Positions 24,675 to 46,141 are shown, counted from the stretch's first letter. The stretch: DNA of 64,000 nt from Acetonema longum DSM 6540 (GCF_000219125.1 NZ_AFGF01000017.1:124001-188000); one strand, 5' to 3'. Notes: a model not told the origin generated them from the sequence alone. Numbers and translations: made by a program.

Positions 24675-24925
24675 CAAAAAAATCCCGTCCCGGCAAGAAA
24701 ATTCTTGCGCCAGGACGGGATTATCTTCCCGCGGTACCACCTAGTTTAGCCAGTTCGCGACCGGACTCACTCAATCCCGTTAACGCCGGGCAGCGGAATG
24801 GCCTACTTTGTTCGGCCTTACAACTCCAGGGAGGCATTCGGCGGACGTTCTCAGACCGGTTTACACCAGACCCGGCTCTCTGTGCTATGGACATACCGCG
24901 TACTATTCCTGTCATCGTCTTTAAA
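24675..24925 (-). promoter_or_regulatory. T-box riboswitch upstream of lrp-aminotransferase
   Basis: On the minus strand the T-box sequence AGGTGGTACCGCGG (24742-24729) is followed by a terminator hairpin (AATCCCGTCC...GGACGGGATT, then a T-run, 24722-24675). Upstream, Stem I shows AAAGACGATGAC, the AGTA of the loop E motif, AGAGAG and the GGTGTAAACCGG apical part. In the specifier loop GAA is followed by TGC (24836-24834), which read as codon is UGC, cysteine; GCC one base on (Ala) is a less likely register. Binding of uncharged tRNA would form the antiterminator and allow transcription. Confidence 0.93.
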
Positions 24926-35102: not shown

Positions 35103-36731
35103 ATGTCTAAACCAACTTATGTGATCGGGCACCGCAATCCGGATACCGACTCGATTTGTTCCGCTATCGGCTATGCCCATCTGAAAGATGCCCTGGGGTA
35201 CGAAGTTATGGCCGTCAGGGCCGGCAAAATCAACCCGGAAACCAAGTTCGTCCTGGAATACTTCGGATGGGACGCGCCGCCCCTCATTCATGATCTTCAC
35301 CCCAGAGTCCGGGATGTCATGGTCGAAGTTACAACAACGGTGCGCCCTACGGATACTTTGCGGGAATTAGGACAGGTCATGAAAACAGCCAATGCGAAGT
35401 CCGTTCCAGTTGCCGGAGAGGACGGCACCTTATACGGCATTGTTAGTGTGGGCGACCTGGCAAAACGATATTTTGACGAATTGGAGATTCAGGATCTATC
35501 CCAGGCCGGCGTGACCTATGGCGCCATTTTGCGGGCTCTAAACGGCACATTTGTTACCGGTGACCTGCAGCGCAGGGTGAACGGTAAGATTCGCATTGCT
35601 GCCGCCCGCTCTCATACCATGCTGCAGATGATCCGGTCCGGGGATATTGTACTGGTGGGCGACAGGGATGAGGCACAGATGGCCTGTATGGATAAAGGGG
35701 TCGACTGCCTGATCATTACGGGCAATGCCCAGATTTCCATACCGGTGCTGGAAACAGCCGAGGCGAAAGGGGTCGTCATGATCCGTGCTCCTCATGATAC
35801 CTATACCTGCGCCCGGCTGATCAATCAAAGCATTCCGGTTCAGCTGGTGATGCAGACTAACGTAATTACCTTTAACCCCAGCGAGCTGATGGCGGATATC
35901 AAAGAGACCATTATTCAGACCAAGTTTCGCAGCTATCCGGTCGTGGCCAACGGCAAACTGGTGGGAATGATCAGCCGGGACCGCTTGATTGTGCAGCAAA
36001 AGGAAAAAGTGATTCTGGTGGACCACAATGAAAAGACGCAGGCAGTGGAGGGAATCGAGGAGGTACAAATTGTGGAAATCGTTGATCATCACCGCTTAGG
36101 CGGACTGGAGACCAGCGAACCAATCTTTATCCGGCATGAACCGGTGGGATCTACTGCCACCATTGTGGCCAACATGCATTGGCACCGGGGAGTCGTTCTG
36201 CCCAGGGATATCGCCGGCTTGCTGCTGGCGGCTATTATCTCCGATACCTTCCTGTTTAAGTCTCCCACATCAACTCCCCAGGATCGGGAGACAGCCTCCA
36301 AGCTGGCGGCCATTGCCGAACTGGATATCGAGACCTTTGGCATGGAGATTTTAAAAGCAGGCTCCGATCTGTCCCAATCCACGCCGTCGGACTATATTCA
36401 CCGCGATTTGAAAGAATTTCAGATCGGCGAATATCGGGTATCCATCAGTCAGATATCGGTTTTGGATCCGGAGAAAGTGCTGGAGGGAAAAAATGAGATT
36501 CACACCTATCTGGAAGAAATGCGGCAGAAAGAAGGGTATGATATCGCGGCGCTGATGATTACCGATATCATTAAAGAAGCCACTCACTTCGTGTTTGCGG
36601 GCCAGCCGGCGGGACTGGTCACACGGGCCTTTGGGCAGCCTGACGGCAACGGGGTTATATATCTGCCGTCGGTTATGTCCCGGAAGAAGCAGATCGTTCC
36701 GCCTCTGGTGAACACTGAAAGGGAGATGTAA
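35103..36731 (+). CDS. ppaC: Manganese-dependent inorganic pyrophosphatase with CBS/DRTGG insert
   Basis: 542 residues, a family II pyrophosphatase. N-terminal DHH domain: VIGHRNPDTDSICSAIGYA. An inserted regulatory region follows, with one CBS (RDVMVEVTTTVRPTDTL), a DRTGG domain, and a second CBS (SYPVVANGKLVGMISRDRLI). Then come VDHHRLGG and the DHHA2 domain (PVGSTATIVANM, SDTFLFKSPTSTPQD). CBS domains bind AMP/ADP and, with DRTGG, diadenosine polyphosphates, tuning activity. The enzyme clears pyrophosphate in the cytoplasm. The 3' end overlaps the convergent LysR gene by 59 bases. The ATG follows ACTAGGAGGCCTTT. Confidence 0.95.
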   Translation: MSKPTYVIGHRNPDTDSICSAIGYAHLKDALGYEVMAVRAGKINPETKFVLEYFGWDAPPLIHDLHPRVRDVMVEVTTTVRPTDTLRELGQVMKTANAKSVPVAGEDGTLYGIVSVGDLAKRYFDELEIQDLSQAGVTYGAILRALNGTFVTGDLQRRVNGKIRIAAARSHTMLQMIRSGDIVLVGDRDEAQMACMDKGVDCLIITGNAQISIPVLETAEAKGVVMIRAPHDTYTCARLINQSIPVQLVMQTNVITFNPSELMADIKETIIQTKFRSYPVVANGKLVGMISRDRLIVQQKEKVILVDHNEKTQAVEGIEEVQIVEIVDHHRLGGLETSEPIFIRHEPVGSTATIVANMHWHRGVVLPRDIAGLLLAAIISDTFLFKSPTSTPQDRETASKLAAIAELDIETFGMEILKAGSDLSQSTPSDYIHRDLKEFQIGEYRVSISQISVLDPEKVLEGKNEIHTYLEEMRQKEGYDIAALMITDIIKEATHFVFAGQPAGLVTRAFGQPDGNGVIYLPSVMSRKKQIVPPLVNTEREM

Positions 36732-37608
36732 GGCAAAGAGCCTGCCAGAGATTTTCCAGGCAGGTCGGCCAAAGGGGCGGATTCCATAGGGCGTAAAATG
36801 TACGGTCAATCTTGATATTCCGGACCGGAATGTTCCGCAGACTGCCTTCAGCCAGTTCCCTGACCACCGCCCAGCGGGATATAAAGCTGATGCCGGCCTG
36901 CCCCATGACAGCACGTTTTACCGATTCATTGCCGCTGGTTTCCATGATAATCTTTAAATTTTCCCATGATACTCCGCCGCGGGATAGGACTGACAGCAAG
37001 GTCTGGCGAGTGCCGGATGCAGCTTCCCGCAGGATGAGCGGATAATGGACGATGTCGGTTACAGTTAACTGCCCGTCGATCAGGTGAGGCAGGGGGAAAT
37101 CCGGATGGGCCACGAGGACCAGGTCATCCCGCCATAAGGGATAGTGATGGACCTCCGGCTGAAAGCCGATGATGGCCAGCGGTAAACTGCCTGCCTGGAA
37201 TTTGCGTAAGATGACGCTGCTATCGCCGGTCTGCAGCGATATTCTGACATCGGGATATTGGGCGAGAAATCCTGCCAGAATCTCCGGCAGAATGTATTCA
37301 GCCGGTATTGTGCTGGCGCCGATGGTGATATGGCCGGCATCACCGGCCACTAACTGGCGGATATGGCTATAAGTCTCATCCAGGATGGTTTGAAGAGAGT
37401 GGGTTTTTTCCAATAAAGCCTTGCCGTATACGGTAAGGGTCACGCCTTTGGCTGTTCTCACAAAAAGAGGGCAGCCAAATTCTTTTTCCAGATGATCGAT
37501 ATGGAAGGAAACAGTGGGTTGCGTGAGATCCAGCTTTTTAGCCGCAGCCGAAAAACTTCCTTCTTCCGCCACCAGCCAGAATATAGGAAGCGATGGTAAA
37601 AAATGCAC
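36673..37608 (-). CDS. LysR family regulator opposite the Se/S and Fe-S operon
   Basis: About 311 residues. N-terminal HTH: IFWLVAEEGSFSAAAKKLDLTQPTVSFHIDHLEKEFGCPLFVR (landmarks), then a periplasmic-binding-fold effector domain (GHITIGASTIPAEYILPEILAGF). The closest type I recall is CysL/CysB-like, linked to sulfur use. The frame reaches 37617, where a GTG overlaps GAGGTG; the GTG at 37608 has GAGG eight bases before it and is preferred. It diverges from the 11-gene cluster starting with yedE and is its likely activator. Its tail overlaps ppaC. Confidence 0.88.
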   Translation of the reverse strand: MHFLPSLPIFWLVAEEGSFSAAAKKLDLTQPTVSFHIDHLEKEFGCPLFVRTAKGVTLTVYGKALLEKTHSLQTILDETYSHIRQLVAGDAGHITIGASTIPAEYILPEILAGFLAQYPDVRISLQTGDSSVILRKFQAGSLPLAIIGFQPEVHHYPLWRDDLVLVAHPDFPLPHLIDGQLTVTDIVHYPLILREAASGTRQTLLSVLSRGGVSWENLKIIMETSGNESVKRAVMGQAGISFISRWAVVRELAEGSLRNIPVRNIKIDRTFYALWNPPLWPTCLENLWQALCLTSPFQCSPEAERSASSGT

Positions 37609-37708
37609 ACAGATCACCTCATATTTCAGTGATTTTTTCGGTGCAAGAGGGATGAATTCCTTTATTCGGCAGGAATGAAATAATAGCTATAGAATAATTA
37701 GGCATTAG

Positions 37709-37781: not shown

Positions 37782-38858
37782 ATGTCAGGAATTGGATTTA
37801 TTCTTTTAACAGGAATTATTTTCGGCTTGGGCGGGGTTCTGCTGGTCAAGGCCGGTAATCCAGGAAATTATGGCTACTGTGCGGCCTGTCATCTGCGGGA
37901 TATTGCCGGCGCCCTTGGCCTTCACAAAGCCGCTGCACTACAGTATGCCCGCCCGGAAGTACTGGGATGGGTGTTGGGCGCTTTTGCTCTGGCCGGTACA
38001 ACCGGAGAATTTCGTCCCCGGGGCGGTTCTAATCCTTTGGTTCGGTTTATATTGGGTGTGGTTATGATGCTGGGGGCTTTAGTATTCCTCGGCTGCCCGC
38101 TGCGGGCTATCCTGCGTTTAGCCGGCGGCGACTTAAACGGGCTTACCGGGTTGGCCGGCTTTGTTACCGGCATTGGTTTCGGGATTTACTTTTTACGCCG
38201 GGGCTTTAACCTGGGCCGCTCACAGATTCATAGCGGCGGCGTCAGGTTTGCCGGGTACATTCCGGCGATATTGGCGTTTGTCTTAGCGATTGCTGTCGCC
38301 GTCCAGGCGCCTTTCTTAAACTTCAGCGCCCAGGGTGTAGGTGCGCAGCATGCACCCTTTTTCATCAGCCTGGCAGCCGGATTGGCAGCCGGATTAGTGG
38401 CAGCCAAGTCCAGAATGTGCTTAAGCGGCGGATTCCGTGACTTCTTTCTGGTTCGGGATACCTATCTTCTGAAAATCTATGGCGCGATGTTTATTGCGGC
38501 CATGCTGGCCAATATGTACTTTGGATTTTTCAAGCTCGGTTTTACCGGCCAGCCTCTGTCTCATACCATGCATCTGTGGAATTTCTTCGGACTGTTTTTA
38601 GTCGGCCTGTCAGCTACCCTGGCCGGCGGCTGCCCGCTGCGCCAGCTTATTATGGCCGGTGAAGGCAATACCGATGCCATGTTCTGCGTGCTGGGCCTAT
38701 TAGTCGGCGCCGGTATCGCTCACAGCTTTAACACTGCCGGCAGCGTTGCCGGTGTTGGCTTGAACGGCCAGTGGGCTGTTGCTCTGGGTATCGCCCTGAC
38801 TTGCGGTATCGGGTTTGTCTGCCGGGAAAAACTGGCGACAGTGCAGAAGGGGGCATAA
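37782..38858 (+). CDS. yedE: YedE family putative selenium transporter
   Basis: 358 residues with about ten membrane helices. Paired family motifs are seen: YCAACHLRDIAGALGLH, LGCPLRAILRLAGGDLNGL, SRMCLSGGFRDFFLVRD and GGCPLRQLIMAGEGN, where conserved Cys residues line the path. YedE/YeeE proteins carry thiosulfate or, in selenium-trait genomes, probably a selenium compound. It heads the 11-gene cluster and lies four bases before a TusA-like gene. ACAGGAGTGATAAAGT precedes the ATG. Whether S or Se is carried cannot be read from the sequence. Confidence 0.9.
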   Translation: MSGIGFILLTGIIFGLGGVLLVKAGNPGNYGYCAACHLRDIAGALGLHKAAALQYARPEVLGWVLGAFALAGTTGEFRPRGGSNPLVRFILGVVMMLGALVFLGCPLRAILRLAGGDLNGLTGLAGFVTGIGFGIYFLRRGFNLGRSQIHSGGVRFAGYIPAILAFVLAIAVAVQAPFLNFSAQGVGAQHAPFFISLAAGLAAGLVAAKSRMCLSGGFRDFFLVRDTYLLKIYGAMFIAAMLANMYFGFFKLGFTGQPLSHTMHLWNFFGLFLVGLSATLAGGCPLRQLIMAGEGNTDAMFCVLGLLVGAGIAHSFNTAGSVAGVGLNGQWAVALGIALTCGIGFVCREKLATVQKGA

Positions 38859-38861
38859 GCC

Positions 38862-39077
38862 ATGGCGACAGAAAAAATATTGGATTTACGCGGGCTGAGC
38901 TGCCCCATCCCCCTTTTAGAGACGAAAAAGGCTCTGGAAAAGATCCAATCTGTCAAGGTCATTGTGGATGAGACGGTGCCCAAAGAAAACATCCTGAAAT
39001 TTGTCCGTTCCCAAAACTATCATGCGGACTGCAGCGAAAACGGCGGAGAGTATACCATTCTGATTCATAAGCCATAA
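38862..39077 (+). CDS. TusA-like sulfur carrier protein
   Basis: 71 residues, SirA/TusA/YedF fold. The motif LDLRGLSCPIPLLETKKAL holds the persulfide-carrying Cys of the CPxP signature near residue 14. It begins four bases after yedE. It probably accepts sulfur or selenium from the transporter side or from the desulfurase-like enzyme and passes it on. Confidence 0.9.
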   Translation: MATEKILDLRGLSCPIPLLETKKALEKIQSVKVIVDETVPKENILKFVRSQNYHADCSENGGEYTILIHKP

Positions 39078-39139
39078 GCGCCTTATGTGAGTGAGATACA
39101 TCGGGATTGCAGCCGGCAGTCAAACGAGGGAGACGCTTT

Positions 39140-39373
39140 ATGCCTAAAACCTGTGTAATTACTTTTGTCTCGGTCAGTCACGCCTTTCGGGCGGAAACGA
39201 TCCTGCAACAACAGGGAATCGCCGCCCGCCTGATTCCTGTCCCCCGGTCCCTGAGCGGCTGTTGCGAGGGGTTGGCCGCGGCAATCCCTCCGAATGAGGC
39301 GGGAGCAGCGGTGAAACTGCTGCAAGAGCATGGTGTGGGCATGCTGATCCAGGGAGAATCGGTTGAATTATAA
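39140..39373 (+). CDS. DUF3343 family protein 1
   Basis: 77 residues: MPKTCVITFVSVSHAFRAETILQQQGIAARLIPVPRSLSGCCEGLAAAI. DUF3343 proteins are small, with a PVPR...CG/CC motif, and often lie beside yedF and selenium genes (recollection). The Cys pair here (SGCCEG) could carry S or Se. GAGGGAGACGCTTT precedes the ATG. Function unknown. A second, different copy lies at 41168. Confidence 0.8.
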   Translation: MPKTCVITFVSVSHAFRAETILQQQGIAARLIPVPRSLSGCCEGLAAAIPPNEAGAAVKLLQEHGVGMLIQGESVEL

Positions 39374-39429
39374 GAATGCCGGCAAACGATAAAAGCAGAA
39401 GAATACTACGAAGCAAAAGGAGAGAAACA

Positions 39430-40020
39430 ATGCGCCAGATTAATGCCATCGGGGACGCCTGTCCCCTGCCGGTCATTAAAACCAAAAAGGGTCTCGCCGA
39501 AATAGAACAGGGCCAGCTGGAAGTTTTAGTAGACAATGAGACGGCTGTCCAAAATATCCGCCGTTTTGCCGCGTCGCAGGGATGCCAATTTGACGTATCA
39601 CAACAGGACGGTATTTTTCATATCTTGCTGCTCAAAGAAACACCCCAGCCAGGTGATTCTTCCGTCAACAGCGAGACGGGCGCCGTTCAGACGGTTGTCG
39701 TTCTGTCTTCCGACACCATGGGAACCGGCGATGATGAACTGGGGCGTATCTTAATGAAGGGGTTTCTGTTTACCCTCACCCAGTTAGATGTCTTGCCTGA
39801 TGTTATCCTGCTCTATAACACCGGCGCAAAGCTGGCGGCAAAAGGCTCAGCCTCCCTGACAGACCTGATTTCTCTGGAAAAATCGGGGGTTGCCGTCATG
39901 ACCTGCGGCACCTGTTTGAATCATTTTGGGATCACGGAGCAGCTCGGGGTAGGGGAAGTCACCAATATGTACCGCATAGTGGAAGAGATGCGCGACGCCG
40001 GCCGCATCATCCGCCCCTGA
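39430..40020 (+). CDS. yedF: Sulfurtransferase-like selenium metabolism protein YedF
   Basis: 196 residues in two domains: an N-terminal TusA-like unit with DACPLPVIKTKKGLAEI (CPxP), and a C-terminal DsrE-like domain with VVVLSSDTMGTGDDELGRIL, a PDVILLYNTGAKLA strand and the second Cys motif CGTCLNHFGI. This two-domain form is the YedF type associated with selenium use. AAAAGGAGAGAAACA before the ATG at 39430 fixes the start (the frame is open from 39376). The next gene starts 5 bases after it. Confidence 0.9.
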   Translation: MRQINAIGDACPLPVIKTKKGLAEIEQGQLEVLVDNETAVQNIRRFAASQGCQFDVSQQDGIFHILLLKETPQPGDSSVNSETGAVQTVVVLSSDTMGTGDDELGRILMKGFLFTLTQLDVLPDVILLYNTGAKLAAKGSASLTDLISLEKSGVAVMTCGTCLNHFGITEQLGVGEVTNMYRIVEEMRDAGRIIRP

Positions 40021-40024
40021 TCCC

Positions 40025-41167
40025 ATGATTTACTTTGATAACGCCGCCACCAGCCTGCCCAAGCCGCCGACCGTAGGAAGCGCAGTGCTGGCGGCCATCA
40101 ATACCTTCGGCGGCGCCGGAAGGGGCGGTCATTCCGCTTCTCTGGCGGCGACCCGCTGTATCTTTCAGGCCCGAAAGGCAGTAGCCGGACTGCTGGGATC
40201 GGAGGCCGGCCGGACGGCTTTTGCCGCCAACGCGACAGAAAGCTTAAATATCGCCATCTCCGGTCTTTTAACCCGGGCAGATCATGCCATTACCACCGTC
40301 CTGGAGCACAATTCGGTTTTGCGTCCCCTTTACAAACTTCGTTCCCAGGGGATGGGACTATCGATCATTGGCATTGACCCAAAGGGAAATTTGAATTATG
40401 ACGAGTTTCACCGCGCGCTTCGTCCCAACAGCAAAGCGGTAATCTGCACCCATGCCTCCAACCTGACCGGCGCCCTCACCAATTTGCCTTTCATCGCCGA
40501 CTTCTGCCAAGCAAACGGCCTGCTGCTGATTGTAGATGCCTCGCAAACCGCCGGTGTGTTTCCCATTGAGGCGGACAAGCTGGGTATTGATGTTGTCTGC
40601 TTTACCGGCCACAAAGGACTGCTGGGGCCGCAGGGGACCGGCGGGCTCTGCATCCGGAAAGGGCTCGCCGTGATGCCGCTCAAGGTAGGAGGCAGCGGAA
40701 TCCACAGCTATTCCGAAACCCATCCCGAGGGCATGCCCGAGGCTCTGGAAGCAGGCACAGCCAACGCCCATGGCATCGCCGGCTTACTGGCCGGGGTTGA
40801 ATACATTCTTGCATCGGATATAGATACTCTGCGCAACAGAGAACTGGCATTGGCCAAACTCTTTCGCCAGGGAATTTCAACCATTTCCGGAGTTCGTATC
40901 TATGGAAATCCGGATATGCCTCACGCTCCCATTGTAACCTTGAATATCGGTTCCCTGGATTCAGGCGCAGCAGGAGACCGCCTGGCAACCCGCTACGATA
41001 TTTGTGTGCGGACCGGCGCCCATTGCGCGCCGCTGGCTCATTTGGCCTTGGGAACCCAGGAGCAGGGGGCGGTGCGCTTTAGTTTCTCCTCTTTCAATAC
41101 GGAAGAAGAAATCCAAACGGGCATCCGGGCGGTTGCCGAAATTGCCGCGGAATGGGGGCAGAGATAG
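40025..41167 (+). CDS. Class V aminotransferase, cysteine desulfurase / selenocysteine lyase-like
   Basis: 380 residues. MIYFDNAATSLPKPP start, PLP-binding His/Asp in VDASQTAG, PLP-lysine Lys197 in CFTGHKGLLGPQGTGG, and a candidate active Cys334 in RTGAHCAPLAH. It matches the SufS/CsdB group, especially the subgroup often seen next to yedF. It would release sulfur or selenium from (seleno)cysteine as persulfide/selenide for TusA-like or YedF carriers. A DUF3343 gene starts at the very next base after its stop. Confidence 0.9.
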   Translation: MIYFDNAATSLPKPPTVGSAVLAAINTFGGAGRGGHSASLAATRCIFQARKAVAGLLGSEAGRTAFAANATESLNIAISGLLTRADHAITTVLEHNSVLRPLYKLRSQGMGLSIIGIDPKGNLNYDEFHRALRPNSKAVICTHASNLTGALTNLPFIADFCQANGLLLIVDASQTAGVFPIEADKLGIDVVCFTGHKGLLGPQGTGGLCIRKGLAVMPLKVGGSGIHSYSETHPEGMPEALEAGTANAHGIAGLLAGVEYILASDIDTLRNRELALAKLFRQGISTISGVRIYGNPDMPHAPIVTLNIGSLDSGAAGDRLATRYDICVRTGAHCAPLAHLALGTQEQGAVRFSFSSFNTEEEIQTGIRAVAEIAAEWGQR

Positions 41168-41416
41168 ATGACTAAAAGGATGGACCGAACAAAACAGCCC
41201 CAATTGATTATTACTTTTCCCACCACCACCGCCGCGATGGCCATGGAAGCCGCCTGTGGGGCTGAATGGGGGCGATTAATACCCATTCCCCGGGAGATCA
41301 GCGGCAGCTGCGGCCTTGCCTGGTGCGCCGAGCCCCAATGGGAGGACGCGCTGCTCCGGGTGATGGAAAAGAACAACATTCAATATCAGGAAAAGCGAAT
41401 TCTTTTACTCTATTAG
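41168..41416 (+). CDS. DUF3343 family protein 2
   Basis: 82 residues, with the more typical DUF3343 motif LIPIPREISGSCGLAWCAEP and a C-terminal KNNIQYQEKRILLLY. The ATG directly abuts the desulfurase-like stop, so translation is coupled. The two Cys of SCGLAWC are conserved-looking. It differs strongly from the copy at 39140, so the pair is not a recent duplication. Function unknown. Confidence 0.8.
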   Translation: MTKRMDRTKQPQLIITFPTTTAAMAMEAACGAEWGRLIPIPREISGSCGLAWCAEPQWEDALLRVMEKNNIQYQEKRILLLY

Positions 41417-41435
41417 CGAAAGGCGTGATAAGCGG

Positions 41436-42593
41436 ATGATTCAGAAGAAAACCGAATTGCCGCAAATTTTCGAAAGCTTTGGCGAAGCGAGGAAAAATGG
41501 ATTTCTCGCCATGAAGAAAATGAAAGACAACGGCAAAGGCGTGGTGGGCCAGTTCTGTTCCTATACCCCGCTGGAAATTTTTATGGCGGCAGGCCTGGTC
41601 AGCGTAGGCTTGTGCTCTACCAGCGACGAAACCATCCCCGAAGCGGAAAAAGTACTGCCGGCCAATCTATGCCCTCTCATTAAGTCCAGCTATGGCTTTG
41701 CCATTACCGACAAATGCCCCTATATGTATTTTTCCGATCTGGTGGTGGGAGAAACTACCTGCGACGGTAAAGTGAAAATGTACGAACTGTTGGCTAAAAA
41801 GAAAAATGTCCACATCCTGGAACTCCCGCGGCGGCAGGATACACCGGAAGCCAAGGCCCTTTGGCGGGCAGAACTGGTGCGCCTGAAGGAGCGGGTGGAA
41901 AAGGACTTCGGCGCTGCCATTAGCGATGAGCATCTGCGTGACGCGATTCACCGGCGGAATATCGAGCGCAGGCTGCTGAAAGAACTGTATGAACTGAGTA
42001 CTATGGCGCCGCCTCCTATTACCGGGCTGCGGCAGCTGCAAATCCTGTTTGGCTCTCAGTTTAAATTTAACTGGGATGAAAAGGTTGCGGAAATCCAAAA
42101 CGCCATTGACAGCATCCGGGCAGCTTATGAAGCTGGCGAGCGACCGGTCCCGGCAGATGTTCCCCGGATTCTGATTACCGGCTGTCCCATGGGCGGCGTG
42201 ACAGAAAAGGTTGTTAAAGTCATTGAGGAAGCAGGCGCGGTCGTCGTTGCCTTTGAAAATTGCACCGGCGCCAAGCCCATGGACCGGCAATGCCGCGAAG
42301 AAGGCGACCCGCTTACCAACATCGCCGACCACTACCTGCAGATTGGCTGCGCTGTCATGACGCCCGACAACAACCGCTTTGAGCTTTTGGGGCGTCTCTG
42401 CGAACAGTTTCAGGTTAACGGTGTAGTAGAAATGACGCTGCAAGCCTGTCATGCCTACGCAGTGGAAGCGCATTCCGTTAAAGCCTTTCTGCAGGAAAAA
42501 GGCATTCCCTATCTGCAGTTGGAAACCGACTATGGCAGTGCCGACATCGGCCAGCTGTCCACCCGGGCCGGCGCCTTTGTCGAGATGTTATAG
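41436..42593 (+). CDS. Double-cubane-cluster anaerobic reductase (DCCP type)
   Basis: 385 residues, related to the D/B subunits of 2-hydroxyacyl-CoA dehydratase and to BcrC. Candidate cluster ligands include Cys41 (GQFCSYTPLEIFMAAG), Cys79, Cys94 and Cys109 in the first half, and ITGCPMGG, FENCTGAKP and LQACHAYAVEAHSVK in the second. Family members characterised in other anaerobes hold an [8Fe-9S] double-cubane cluster and reduce small molecules such as acetylene; the natural substrate is unknown. Its activase follows after 3 bases. The position after S/Se genes is notable. Confidence 0.88.
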   Translation: MIQKKTELPQIFESFGEARKNGFLAMKKMKDNGKGVVGQFCSYTPLEIFMAAGLVSVGLCSTSDETIPEAEKVLPANLCPLIKSSYGFAITDKCPYMYFSDLVVGETTCDGKVKMYELLAKKKNVHILELPRRQDTPEAKALWRAELVRLKERVEKDFGAAISDEHLRDAIHRRNIERRLLKELYELSTMAPPPITGLRQLQILFGSQFKFNWDEKVAEIQNAIDSIRAAYEAGERPVPADVPRILITGCPMGGVTEKVVKVIEEAGAVVVAFENCTGAKPMDRQCREEGDPLTNIADHYLQIGCAVMTPDNNRFELLGRLCEQFQVNGVVEMTLQACHAYAVEAHSVKAFLQEKGIPYLQLETDYGSADIGQLSTRAGAFVEML

Positions 42594-42596
42594 GCA

Positions 42597-43373
42597 ATGA
42601 TAAAAGCATCCGTCGGCATTGATTGTGGTTCGGCTTCATGTAAAGGCGTCCTCCTTCAAGAGGACGCTGTCCTTGCCTCCTGTGTGCAATCCACCGGCTG
42701 GAGTCCGCGGGAAACTTCCCGGGCGGTTTTGGAGCAGCTTCTGGCGAAGACAGGACTGGCAAGAGAAAACGTACATATTGTCGCTACCGGATATGGCCGG
42801 GTAAGCATCGATTTTGCCCAGCGGGCCGTGACGGAAATCACCTGCCACGGGTTAGGCGCAGATTATTTGCTGCCGGGGGTGCGCACGGTTATTGATATCG
42901 GCGGTCAGGATTCAAAGGTGATTGCCGTGGAAGCCGGACAGGTCCGGTCCTTCCAGATGAACAATAAGTGCGCCGCCGGTACCGGCCGTTTCCTGGAAAT
43001 GTCGGCTAACCGTATGGGCATTGATTTGGCGGAATTTGCAAGCCTTCTGCCCGAAGGGAAAAGCTGTTCGTTAAGCAGTATGTGCGCTGTGTTTGCCGAT
43101 TCGGAAATCATATCGCTGCTGGCAGCGGGAAAGAGCCGTGAGGAAGTGGCCGGCGGTATTATTCAGTTAGTGGTAGACCGGGCAGTCGCCTTGGCAGCCC
43201 GGGTGGAGTCTTCCCCGCCGATACTGCTGACAGGCGGTTTGGCGGGCATGGAGGGGCTTCGAATCGCCCTGGAGAGACAGCTTGGCCAGCCGGTAGCAGC
43301 TTCGGATTTATCCCGTTTTGCCGGCGCTATTGGCGCCGCAAGGACTTACTGGATGAGAAAAGCGAGGAAATGA
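42597..43373 (+). CDS. ATP-driven activase of the double-cubane reductase (BcrAD/HgdC type)
   Basis: 258 residues, ASKHA fold: phosphate-1 loop VGIDCGSASCKGVLL, the IDIGGQDSKVI loop, and the two cluster-ligand Cys of the family, Cys125 (NNKCAAGTGRFLE) and Cys163 (SSMCAVFADSEIISLL). A homodimer holds one [4Fe-4S] between subunits and uses ATP to push low-potential electrons into the partner reductase, which is encoded just upstream. Confidence 0.93.
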   Translation: MIKASVGIDCGSASCKGVLLQEDAVLASCVQSTGWSPRETSRAVLEQLLAKTGLARENVHIVATGYGRVSIDFAQRAVTEITCHGLGADYLLPGVRTVIDIGGQDSKVIAVEAGQVRSFQMNNKCAAGTGRFLEMSANRMGIDLAEFASLLPEGKSCSLSSMCAVFADSEIISLLAAGKSREEVAGGIIQLVVDRAVALAARVESSPPILLTGGLAGMEGLRIALERQLGQPVAASDLSRFAGAIGAARTYWMRKARK

Positions 43374-43406
43374 GTTTTCGGACGAAGTCATCAATAAAAG
43401 GAGTCA

Positions 43407-44252
43407 ATGATGGAGGATAAAAAAGAAGGACTCAGCAGAAGGTCATTTCTTAAGGCCGGAATCGGCGCTGCTGCTGCGGCTTCGGTATCCGGCCTGATGT
43501 TGGCGGGACGGTTTCAGGAAAATTCGCTGCAGGTATGGTCCTGCGGCGGACTGGCTGAAGCCTTTACGGAAGCAAATGGCCTGTATGAGCAGAAAAACGG
43601 CATCCGGATCAATTATACGGGAGCCTTCGCTGCGGCGTTGGGTAAATCCCTTCTGGGGGGAGCGGTCACAGAGGTATTTGCCGGACGGGTGCTGCAACTG
43701 GCCCAAACTCTGAGGAACGACAATAAAATGCTTTACTTCAAACCCCTGTGTTTTACCGAATATGTTCTGATCACCCCTCTGGGGAACCCGGCGGGAATCC
43801 AATCAGTTCAGGACCTTGTCCGGCCGGGAGTCAGGGTTATTCTGCCGCTTGGCGCCTCGCCTCCGGGCGGAGACGCCGTCATGGGCATACTAAAGAAAGC
43901 AAATGTTGGCCAGGCAGTCCTCAAGAATATGATCGAAAAAGAAAGCTGTGTCATCAAAATGATGCCGGCTATCATAAACGGCAAAGGCGAGGCCTCTATC
44001 GTGGAAAGACGCCTTACCCGCCAGGCCGCATTTGCCGGAAAAGTGGAAGTGTTACCCATTCCGGAGGCCCTTTTCCCGCCCGGTCCGCTGACTTTTACCA
44101 TCGGGGTCATGAAGTACGCCAAGGACCGTGTTTTGGCGGATGATTACGTGAACTTCATCTGCTCCGGCGAGGCCCAGGCAATTTTTGAGCGTCATGGCTT
44201 CATTCCGGCCATTTCGGCAAAAGGCAGGATTCTTGTTGAGACACTGGGGTAA
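43407..44252 (+). CDS. Tat-exported ModA-like substrate-binding protein
   Basis: 281 residues. Twin-arginine signal LSRRSFLKAGIGAAAAASVSGLMLAG at residues ~9-34, followed by a periplasmic-binding fold (LQVWSCGGLAEAFTEANGLYEQKNGIRINYTG, PLCFTEYVLITPLGNPAGIQSV, GGDAVMGILKKANVG) of the ModA/WtpA type that binds oxyanions such as molybdate or tungstate. Tat export of a binding protein is unusual and may mean it folds with a cofactor inside. No ABC permease or ATPase is nearby, so it probably works with the membrane ferredoxin encoded next rather than with a transporter. AAAAGGAG precedes the ATG. Confidence 0.78.
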   Translation: MMEDKKEGLSRRSFLKAGIGAAAAASVSGLMLAGRFQENSLQVWSCGGLAEAFTEANGLYEQKNGIRINYTGAFAAALGKSLLGGAVTEVFAGRVLQLAQTLRNDNKMLYFKPLCFTEYVLITPLGNPAGIQSVQDLVRPGVRVILPLGASPPGGDAVMGILKKANVGQAVLKNMIEKESCVIKMMPAIINGKGEASIVERRLTRQAAFAGKVEVLPIPEALFPPGPLTFTIGVMKYAKDRVLADDYVNFICSGEAQAIFERHGFIPAISAKGRILVETLG

Positions 44253-44255
44253 AAG

Positions 44256-45029
44256 ATGCCTAATCAAATAGAATTTACAAAACCAGCGAGGGTTTCATTG
44301 ACGAAGATCCGCCGCGGAGTTCAGTTGGCCATGCTGACTGTTTTGGGGCCATGGGCCTATTATGGAATTTTTCGCTGCCCGTTTCTTGTCCCGTTTGTGA
44401 ACTGCCAGGTCTGCCCGGTTCTTACCTGCTGGGGCAGGATCACAAGTTACTTCTGGGGCTTTTGGCTGTTTTTGCCGGTGACGGTTTTGCTGGTCGGACG
44501 GGCTTTTTGCGGCTGGCTCTGTCCCGGCGGGTACGTCAATCAGATCGTCGGTAAGTTCTCATTTCTAAAGATACGTAAGCGCAACCGGTTTGTGCGATTT
44601 GCCCCGGCGGGAATGGTTATGGCGCTGGCTGCGGTAGCGGTTATCTGGTTTGGCTGGCACAACCCCAGGATGATGGTGCCGATCAGGGTTGGTGAATTTT
44701 GGAGTTCAACCCGGCTTTCCTTCGAGCACGCCTCCCTGGCTTGGCTAATCCGCACGTTTGTTGTTTTGGGGCTGACAGCATCGGGCTTGCTTGTGGCTAA
44801 TCTGTGGTGCCGCTTTGTCTGTCCTACCGGCGGTTTACTGGAATTGCTCAAGGGTATGGCTGCCTTTCGCGTTTTCAAAACCAGTGACTGCAATGGTTGC
44901 AATATCTGCATGCAAGTATGCGAGATGGGGACCCGGCCGGATGAAATGAATTGCACGAATTGCGGTGACTGCCTCGAAATCTGTCCTGTCGGGGCTATAA
45001 AATTCGGGAAAAAGAAAGAATGGCAATGA
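44256..45029 (+). CDS. NapH-like membrane-bound ferredoxin
   Basis: 257 residues with four or so membrane helices, paired cytoplasmic-side motifs RAFCGWLCPGGY and NLWCRFVCPTGG, and a C-terminal pair of 4Fe-4S motifs, CNGCNICMQVCEMG and CTNCGDCLEICPVGAI. NapH/CcoG-type proteins take electrons from quinols and pass them outward or inward. Here it may supply electrons to the reductase or to the radical SAM enzyme. It starts 4 bases after the binding-protein stop and overlaps the next gene. Confidence 0.88.
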   Translation: MPNQIEFTKPARVSLTKIRRGVQLAMLTVLGPWAYYGIFRCPFLVPFVNCQVCPVLTCWGRITSYFWGFWLFLPVTVLLVGRAFCGWLCPGGYVNQIVGKFSFLKIRKRNRFVRFAPAGMVMALAAVAVIWFGWHNPRMMVPIRVGEFWSSTRLSFEHASLAWLIRTFVVLGLTASGLLVANLWCRFVCPTGGLLELLKGMAAFRVFKTSDCNGCNICMQVCEMGTRPDEMNCTNCGDCLEICPVGAIKFGKKKEWQ

Positions 45030-45901
45030 GTGAGCGCTGCGAACAAAGGTCTCGTGATCAGCACCCCTGTTTTCACGGAAAAGCCAGTGCCCGCTGGGGC
45101 CGGATTCATTTGCCGGTAGCGCCGGCCTGCAATATTCAGTGCAATTTCTGCAACCGGCTCTACGATTGCGTCAATGAAAGTCGCCCGGGAGTGACCGGAC
45201 GTATTCTCACGCCGTCGGAAGCGCTGACGACTTTGAGCCGGCTTTTGCAACAAAGAAATGATATTGCCGTGGTCGGAATTGCCGGACCGGGAGACCCGCT
45301 TTGCGATCCGAACCGGACCTTGGAAACTCTGCGCGCCGTTCACGCCGCCTATCCCGGGATTTTGCTTTGTGTATCCACCAACGGACTGAATCTGTCCGGC
45401 TATATTGATCAACTGGCCGACACCGGAGTGACTCACGTCACCGTAACGGTCAATGCGGTTGATCCCTATGTCGGTCAACAGATTTACGCTTCGGTTACAG
45501 TAAAGCAACAGACCTATCGGGGACTTGAAGCCGCCAGGATTCTTCTCGGCCGGCAGGAAGAGGCCGTCGTCGGCTTGAAACAAAGAGGGATGACGGTCAA
45601 GATCAATACGGTCGTTCTTCCCGGTATTAATACCGGCCATATTTCTGCTATTGCCGCCAAGGTAGCCGCCTGGGAAGCCGACGCTATGAACTGTATACCC
45701 CTGATCCCCGTCCATGGCACTCCTTTTGCGGAGCTTACGGCTCCCGGCGATGTGGAAATGGCCTACATACGAAAATCAGTAGCCGTCTATTTGCCGCAGA
45801 TTTATCATTGCCGCCGCTGCCGGGCGGATGCTGCAGGACTGCTTGGCGGCTGTGCTGCAAACGCACAGGGTGGGAGTGCTGAATCAGGGAGAACTGAATG
45901 A
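45026..45901 (+). CDS. NifB-signature radical SAM protein
   Basis: 291 residues from the ATG overlapping the upstream stop (ATGA); an ATG at 45020 is also possible. It carries CNIQCNFCNRLYDCVNESRPGV (given as landmark), with Cys35, Cys39 and Cys42 for the radical SAM cluster and the NESRPG stretch characteristic of NifB. GPGDPL and KINTVVLPGIN follow, and CRRCRADAAG near the C-terminus may hold a further cluster. NifB fuses Fe-S units into an 8Fe carbide precursor of nitrogenase cofactors. There is no NifX-like tail and no nif gene in the window, so the product here may be another cofactor. Confidence 0.85.
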   Translation: MSERCEQRSRDQHPCFHGKASARWGRIHLPVAPACNIQCNFCNRLYDCVNESRPGVTGRILTPSEALTTLSRLLQQRNDIAVVGIAGPGDPLCDPNRTLETLRAVHAAYPGILLCVSTNGLNLSGYIDQLADTGVTHVTVTVNAVDPYVGQQIYASVTVKQQTYRGLEAARILLGRQEEAVVGLKQRGMTVKINTVVLPGINTGHISAIAAKVAAWEADAMNCIPLIPVHGTPFAELTAPGDVEMAYIRKSVAVYLPQIYHCRRCRADAAGLLGGCAANAQGGSAESGRTE

Positions 45902-45948
45902 AAAAATCTCGTTAATAATGATAATGCTTAGACAAATTAGCCTCGTAT

Positions 45949-45985
45949 AAAAAACACGGCTTACCTAAAAAGCGCCGTGTTTTTT
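45949..45985. terminator. Terminator of the Se/S Fe-S cluster
   Basis: AAAAAACACGGC pairs perfectly with GCCGTGTTTTTT around a 13-base loop about 50 bases after the last gene. It would work in both directions. Confidence 0.93.
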
Positions 45986-46141
45986 ATTATCATGCTGACA
46001 GCGACTTAAGCAGGATTAAAGGATAGGAATGAATTTAGGACGAATACTTAACTGGAATTTTTCAATGGGTTAAGCTCTTCAATAAGACGGATCGCTAGTG
46101 GGGTCCTGTTGAGAAAAAAACGGTAAAGCCGTATTAAATAA

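Follow-up and report, generated by a model that had tools for sequence, protein, structure and literature searches.

A putative NifB-associated, twin-arginine-exported redox system encoded in a selenium-related operon of Acetonema longum

A 64,000-nucleotide stretch of the Acetonema longum DSM 6540 genome (GCF_000219125.1, NZ_AFGF01000017.1:124001-188000; the window, from whose first letter positions are counted) carries at 37782-45901, on the plus strand, an eleven-gene operon made of two separable modules, genes 1-8 and genes 9-11. The latter three, here called the trio, encode a solute-binding protein (SBP) homologue with a twin-arginine (Tat) signal, a NapH-like membrane ferredoxin and a NifB-type radical S-adenosylmethionine (SAM) enzyme, NifB2, and represent a putative, undescribed and widely spread NifB-associated exported redox system. 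NifB is usually treated as a nitrogenase gene, often as its marker; NifB2 keeps company with the SBP and NapH-like genes even where the bacterium has no detectable nitrogenase, so NifB probably serves some customer besides nitrogenase. The trio genes are:

43407..44252, plus strand: gene 9 (trio gene 1), Tat-signal ModA-fold SBP, matched by Pfam TAT_signal and SBP_bac_11
44256..45029, plus strand: gene 10 (trio gene 2), NapH-like membrane ferredoxin, below the TIGR02163 threshold and with an extra Cys4 motif
45020..45901, plus strand: gene 11 (trio gene 3), NifB2, a radical SAM NifB without the NifX-like C-terminal domain (TIGR01290, 311 bits; PDB 6y1x, E=4e-78)

An earlier, sequence-only reading of the operon had left gene 9 unnamed, which was identified here through Pfam as a twin-arginine SBP homologue, and had known of no description of the gene combination. 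In the literature searched, the latter holds for the trio, of which no published description was found, but not for genes 1-8, which are the selenium neighbourhood already published (PMC5322559).

Distribution of the trio and its occurrence without nitrogenase

When 84,980 genomes were scanned with an SBP profile, 53 loci were obtained, one of them a fragment, and 53 loci including the window were analysed; the 52 besides the window belong to Bacillota, Thermodesulfobacteriota, Campylobacterota, Acidobacteriota and Phycisphaerae. A NapH-like gene adjoining the SBP gene was called in 47 of the 53 loci, and NifB homologues were called in 34, which, minus two distant ordinary NifBs, leaves NifB2 adjacent in 32/53. 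Among the close relatives, seven in number and joined by one contig whose NifB2 is truncated, NifB2 comes after SBP and NapH at every locus where the genes were callable, the open reading frame (ORF) selection having hidden one trio gene in two loci; YedE-TusA adjoins the trio in five and a gene for the double-cubane cluster protein (DCCP) lies nearby in three. In the search for the same gene order that the sequence-only reading had proposed, the trio travels as a unit among relatives, and it and other parts of the operon recur in other phyla, but the first eight genes vary among relatives. Since parts recur in other phyla, the grouping of the eleven genes is beyond chance.

A NifB-family gene was found in 50/53 SBP genomes (25/25 and 25/28 in the two sets searched), against a base rate of 39/148 (26%) in Desulfobacterota, a reference set for which a completeness of at least 90% was requested. 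At the 21 SBP loci with no adjacent NifB2, a NifB lies elsewhere in the genome in 18 (binomial 2e-8, a descriptive value that ignores relatedness and uses a reference phylum not matching all carriers), and two of the three SBP genomes without NifB are contigs that end at the SBP. SBP carriers make up 3/148 of the Desulfobacterota sample, a number too small to test NifB dependence within that phylum.

Further, no match to the nitrogenase family PF00148 was obtained at the threshold used in five trio carriers, two Campylobacter concisus isolates and three metagenome-assembled genomes (MAGs), and in these same five NifB2 is the sole NifB. Comparative genomics gives good support to NifB2 working without nitrogenase in some bacteria. 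NifB2 might instead be an extra NifB for nitrogenase or nitrogenase-like reductases, with its adjacency to SBP-NapH incidental, as would suit the three PF00148 protein pairs of the host genome and the above-cut-off PF00148 proteins in 19/25 trio genomes. The two C. concisus isolates, however, contradict this explanation, provided that no divergent nitrogenase-family protein was overlooked in them, and the three MAGs, the presence in the host of another NifB beside its own nitrogenase-like pair, and the recurrence of the trio across phyla also make it very improbable.

The other host NifB (299 amino acids; locus L051, G000:C269 1-16665) lies beside a nitrogenase-like PF00148 pair, an SsuA/SaoX-like binding protein, amino-acid ATP-binding cassette (ABC) genes and two pyridoxal-phosphate enzymes of Cys/Met metabolism, possibly a methylthio-alkane reductase-type sulfur salvage cluster. 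The two further PF00148 pairs are on G000:C161 and G000:C204.

Other neighbours were seen at some trio loci. In Sporomusa and Anaerospora, the trio is also flanked by SsuA-type ABC genes; in Anaerospora (L047 7921-16587), it adjoins, besides this ABC system, two MtaA-like corrinoid methyltransferases and a corrinoid activase-like protein; clusters of this kind have been linked to methyl-sulfur and methyl-selenium metabolism (PMC10418091). In three Desulfobulbaceae loci (L092, L095, L098), DoxX-like and rhodanese-like genes directly precede SBP-NapH, no NifB2 is adjacent, and an ordinary NifB lies elsewhere in the genome. For two Desulfovibrio loci with apparent NifB2 ORFs of 550 residues, a fusion to NapH was considered as the cause and rejected, since NapH was not matched; the extra N-terminal stretch is probably an unrelated reading frame that overlies the NapH gene.

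Predicted properties of the three trio proteins

NifB2 aligned over almost its full length to the archaeal stand-alone NifBs 6y1x and 7bi7. Its radical SAM motif CxxxCxxC (C37, C41 and C44) is kept in 34/34 sequences. In MaNifB, the K1 ligands and essential His are C30, C63, C129 and H43, and the K2 ligands are C264, C274 and C277 (PMC7145814). The K1 equivalents in NifB2 are C17 (34/34), C50 (31/34) and C117 (32/32), with H30 (34/34) aligned to MaNifB H43 as the His ligand. For K2, C264 and C267 of the window protein, equivalent to MaNifB C274 and C277, are conserved in 31/31, and no Cys matches MaNifB C264, whose equivalent is likewise missing from the aligned stretch of the crystallised 6y1x and 7bi7. 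With nearly all NifB cluster ligands kept, the alignments support the assignment of NifB2 as a true NifB-type enzyme, in line with the NifB signature seen in the sequence-only reading, and its product is likely to be a NifB-co-type 8-iron cluster. The radical SAM motif, the K1 ligands with their His, the two K2 cysteines named above and the lack of a NifX-like tail are common to NifB2, NifB and the archaeal stand-alone forms; however, NifB2 differs in standing beside SBP-NapH, in occurring without detected nitrogenase, in showing 40-47% identity to the sampled ordinary NifBs, and in the TIGR01290 score of the window copy, which falls under the NCBIfam cut-off of 343.65 bits that the C. concisus copies pass (351).

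In the tree, 26 trio NifBs were separated from the ordinary Negativicutes NifBs with a support of 93/81, and this clade comprises members from Bacillota, Thermodesulfobacteriota, Campylobacterota, Acidobacteriota and some MAGs labelled Myxococcota. Three further sequences (L091, L096 and L102) form a separate NifB branch, which drew long-branch warnings, and at these loci NifB precedes SBP-NapH rather than following it; this distinct gene order suggests that NifB was recruited a second time, independently. The C. concisus NifB2 (L073, L075) groups with that of Megasphaera, which suggests acquisition by horizontal transfer.

The SBP carries an RR (Tat) motif and three cysteines, C46, C115 and C181, all invariant in the alignment of 53/53 sequences. 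An AlphaFold2 model built from 53 sequences (pLDDT, the predicted local distance difference test, 84.8) adopts the type II SBP ModA fold, with Z 25.3 to 4kd5 over 225 residues at 2.1 Å, and the structural look-up returned solute-binding-protein folds only, nothing being nearer to a cluster-carrying protein. While the fold is common to ModA/PEB3 periplasmic binding proteins (Z about 25), the SBP differs from them by its Tat motif, by having no ABC partner in the operon, by the loss of the serine ligands in the alignment and by the gain of the three invariant cysteines. In detail, S12 and S39, the oxyanion ligands of E. coli ModA, align with Gly48 and Ala75 of the SBP; C46 falls at A10, C181 at or beside V152, and the pairing of C115 is weaker. 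This alignment suggests that the cysteines may replace the ModA oxyanion site. Tat carries folded, often cofactor-loaded proteins, and ordinary binding proteins are exported via Sec; given the Tat export and the lack of ABC partners, a predicted redox protein fits better than a transport receptor.

The NapH-like protein contains two CxxxCP motifs and two ferredoxin Cys4 motifs, and all 12 Cys that align with Cys of E. coli NapH, a quinol-dehydrogenase ferredoxin, are retained. It differs from the NapH group by four additional Cys (C41, C50, C53 and C58) before the first CxxxCP, which are conserved in 47/47 and have no Cys counterpart in the alignment with E. coli NapH, and by the absence of Nap genes among the eleven operon genes; its TIGR02163 score of 54.7 bits is below the NCBIfam cut-off of 213.

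These features also bear on another role for the pair, in which SBP-NapH would bind an oxyanion or soft metal(loid) (selenite, arsenite, thiomolybdate or Cu) through three thiols and act as its receptor or reductase. The cluster made by NifB2 would then go to a different participant in the same stress or nutrient response, the extra Cys4 site of the NapH-like protein being one example. The ModA fold, the three invariant cysteines, that extra Cys4 site, and FdhA and rhodanese neighbours at some loci are consistent with such a role, whereas the absence of an ABC permease or ATPase from the trio, the lost ModA serine ligands, and a Tat motif in every sequence where a Sec signal would be ordinary argue for regarding it as unlikely.

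Relation to DCCP and selenium, and a proposed mechanism

According to the sequence-only reading, the NifB-like enzyme would build or feed a complex Fe-S cluster of the DCCP encoded by gene 7, with sulfur or selenium supplied by YedE, YedF and the desulfurase and electrons by the NapH-like protein. The co-occurrence that it proposed to test was observed: DCCP is present in 9/9 NifB2 genomes vs. 11/71 others among 80 relatives (Fisher 7e-7), and within the order in 8/8 vs. 7/20 (Fisher 0.002). DCCP genes also lie near the trio in Acidobacteriota, Syntrophus, Syntrophobacteraceae and Negativicutes, and C. concisus combines NifB2 with an HGD-D protein while giving no nitrogenase match. However, BzdN made in E. 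coli MC4100 forms the DCCP-type [8Fe-9S] double cubane (PMC11971306), and the E. coli control has a DCCP-family protein and no NifB match; eleven of the relatives carry DCCP without NifB2, at least one isolate (G097) combines SBP-NapH with a NifB yet lacks any HGD-D protein, and the Tat-exported SBP would be left unexplained. The claim that NifB2 builds the DCCP cluster was thus unsupported, and little probability is given to it. NifB2 has the Tat-exported SBP and the NapH-like protein as its constant partners rather than DCCP, and the co-occurrence of DCCP and NifB2 is regarded as reflecting a common selenium and anaerobic lifestyle, with some room for a direct link.

The trio itself is found in selenium-related surroundings. 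SelD was present in 49/53 SBP genomes, and the selenocysteine machinery has been reported in 21.5% of bacteria (PMC10418091). YedE lies near the SBP in 8/53 loci that represent five lineages or more; the count is likewise 8/53 for DCCP or its activase, and about seven for formate dehydrogenase alpha subunits (FdhA); YedE, TusA/YedF, DCCP, SelD or FdhA occur near the trio in several lineages.

Based on these observations, the following mechanism is proposed. YedE would import reduced selenium or sulfur, which TusA, YedF, the DUF3343 proteins and the desulfurase would carry onward, and DCCP with its activase would perform ATP-driven low-potential reduction. NifB2 would fuse two [4Fe-4S] clusters into a NifB-co-type 8-iron cluster, which may be loaded into the SBP in the cytoplasm at the C46/C115/C181 site, where ModA would hold molybdate. 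The folded holoprotein would then be exported by Tat, receive electrons from the NapH-like membrane protein, and reduce selenium or sulfur species outside the membrane, thereby feeding YedE and selenoprotein synthesis. The core of this proposal, that the second module is a NifB-dependent, nitrogenase-independent redox system separate from DCCP, is given slightly less than an even chance, with a lower one for the complete chain set out above. For its parts, the case for the SBP-NapH pair as the client of NifB2 is evenly balanced, a selenium or sulfur species is a tentative candidate for the substrate, and placement of the cluster at the three SBP cysteines is doubtful. All taken together, a third NifB client, that is, a NifB-co-type and possibly selenium-containing 8-iron cluster held by three cysteines of a Tat-exported ModA-fold protein and reduced by NapH, acting as an extracytoplasmic selenium- or sulfur-reducing enzyme in bacteria without nitrogenase, seems unlikely to hold in every respect.

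L-clusters outside nitrogenase are known from the MCR activation complex, in which McrC/Mmp7 carry NifB-type L-clusters as an electron path beyond the nitrogenase family (PMC12176620). This is the likeness proposed for the trio; however, those are archaeal MCR activation proteins, while the trio involves a bacterial Tat-exported ModA fold, known here from genes and a model. If the proposal is true, NifB would serve a client that belongs neither to the nitrogenase family nor to the archaeal MCR activation complex, and nifB alone would be poor grounds for predicting nitrogen fixation. How the 8-iron cluster arose and what it is used for could then be tested in hosts that are easy to handle, such as Sporomusa ovata, whose strain DSM 2662 carries the trio together with YedE-TusA and has ordinary NifBs as well. 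If exported, the cluster would to our knowledge be the first of its class beyond the cytoplasm.

Several points weigh against the proposal. NapH and NifB2 were not found next to every SBP, some of these cases being contig ends or a wrong reading frame. The association of SBP with NifB is confounded by descent, and the Negativicutes relatives with an above-cut-off DCCP all have some NifB. Most carriers are MAGs of unknown completeness, in which a missing PF00148 match counts for less than it does in the two C. concisus isolates. Comparison of the SBP profile with E. coli ModA alone by hhalign gave an uninformative probability of 4%, so the fold assignment rests on the model and HMMER, and the convergence of the three cysteines at one site was inferred from the ModA alignment. 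The selenium link of the trio is possibly indirect, through formate dehydrogenase, because FdhA lies near the SBP at the loci mentioned. Finally, the cluster, export, electron transfer and reduction are all predicted from sequence and model.

Layout of the operon and its first module

The eleven genes are separated by gaps of at most 62 bases, and several neighbours touch or overlap; the gaps are 62 bases between TusA and the first DUF3343 gene, 56 upstream of YedF and 33 upstream of gene 9. The features besides the trio are:

36673..37617, minus strand: LysR regulator, divergent at the operon head (selenium-metabolism LysR model NF040786, 239 bits, just below the cut-off of 250)
37782..38858, plus strand: YedE family putative selenium transporter (TIGR04112, 443 bits, cut-off 200)
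38862..39077, plus strand: TusA-like sulfurtransferase (PF01206)
39140..39373, plus strand: Se/S carrier-like protein (DUF3343), first copy (PF11823, 63 bits)
39430..40020, plus strand: YedF selenium metabolism protein (TIGR03527, 221 bits, cut-off 110)
40025..41167, plus strand: class V cysteine desulfurase / selenocysteine lyase-like protein (TIGR01977, 386 bits, cut-off 377)
41168..41416, plus strand: Se/S carrier-like protein (DUF3343), second copy (PF11823, 72 bits)
41436..42593, plus strand: DCCP, double-cubane-cluster anaerobic reductase (NF040772, 511 bits, cut-off 350; PDB 6eno, E=1e-73)
42597..43373, plus strand: ATP-dependent activase of DCCP (TIGR00241, 245 bits)
45947..45987, plus strand: intrinsic terminator-like hairpin and T-run 3' of gene 11 (-17.1 kcal/mol, z -4.96)

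The hairpin was skipped by a simple terminator scan, its loop being longer than 8. Coordinates, families and hairpin all confirmed the operon as first read, with eleven plus-strand genes, a divergent LysR gene and a strong terminator.

The selenium neighbourhood of Lin et al. (2015) lists YedE, SirA-like, selenocysteine lyase, activase, HGD-D, DUF3343, YedF and LysR (PMC5322559). That list shares with the present operon the families of genes 1-8 and its type of LysR regulator, whereas NifB and NapH, both present in the operon here, have zero occurrences in the text of that paper. The features taken to mark selenium metabolism were found, namely YedE and YedF equivalogs in the operon and SelD in the host genome, and the family matches for genes 1-8 supported the earlier assignment of YedE, TusA/YedF and the desulfurase to selenium and sulfur trafficking. 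Similar to the DCCP of known structure (6eno), gene 7 encodes a DCCP with its own activase adjacent, and nothing unusual was found within the protein.

The host SelD (L039, G000:C15:66038-66964) contains one in-frame TGA and is probably itself a selenoprotein, likewise in most trio genomes. An Rfam search of the window gave zero matches within the operon, its sole match being a T-box leader over the gathering score at 24708-24924 on the minus strand.

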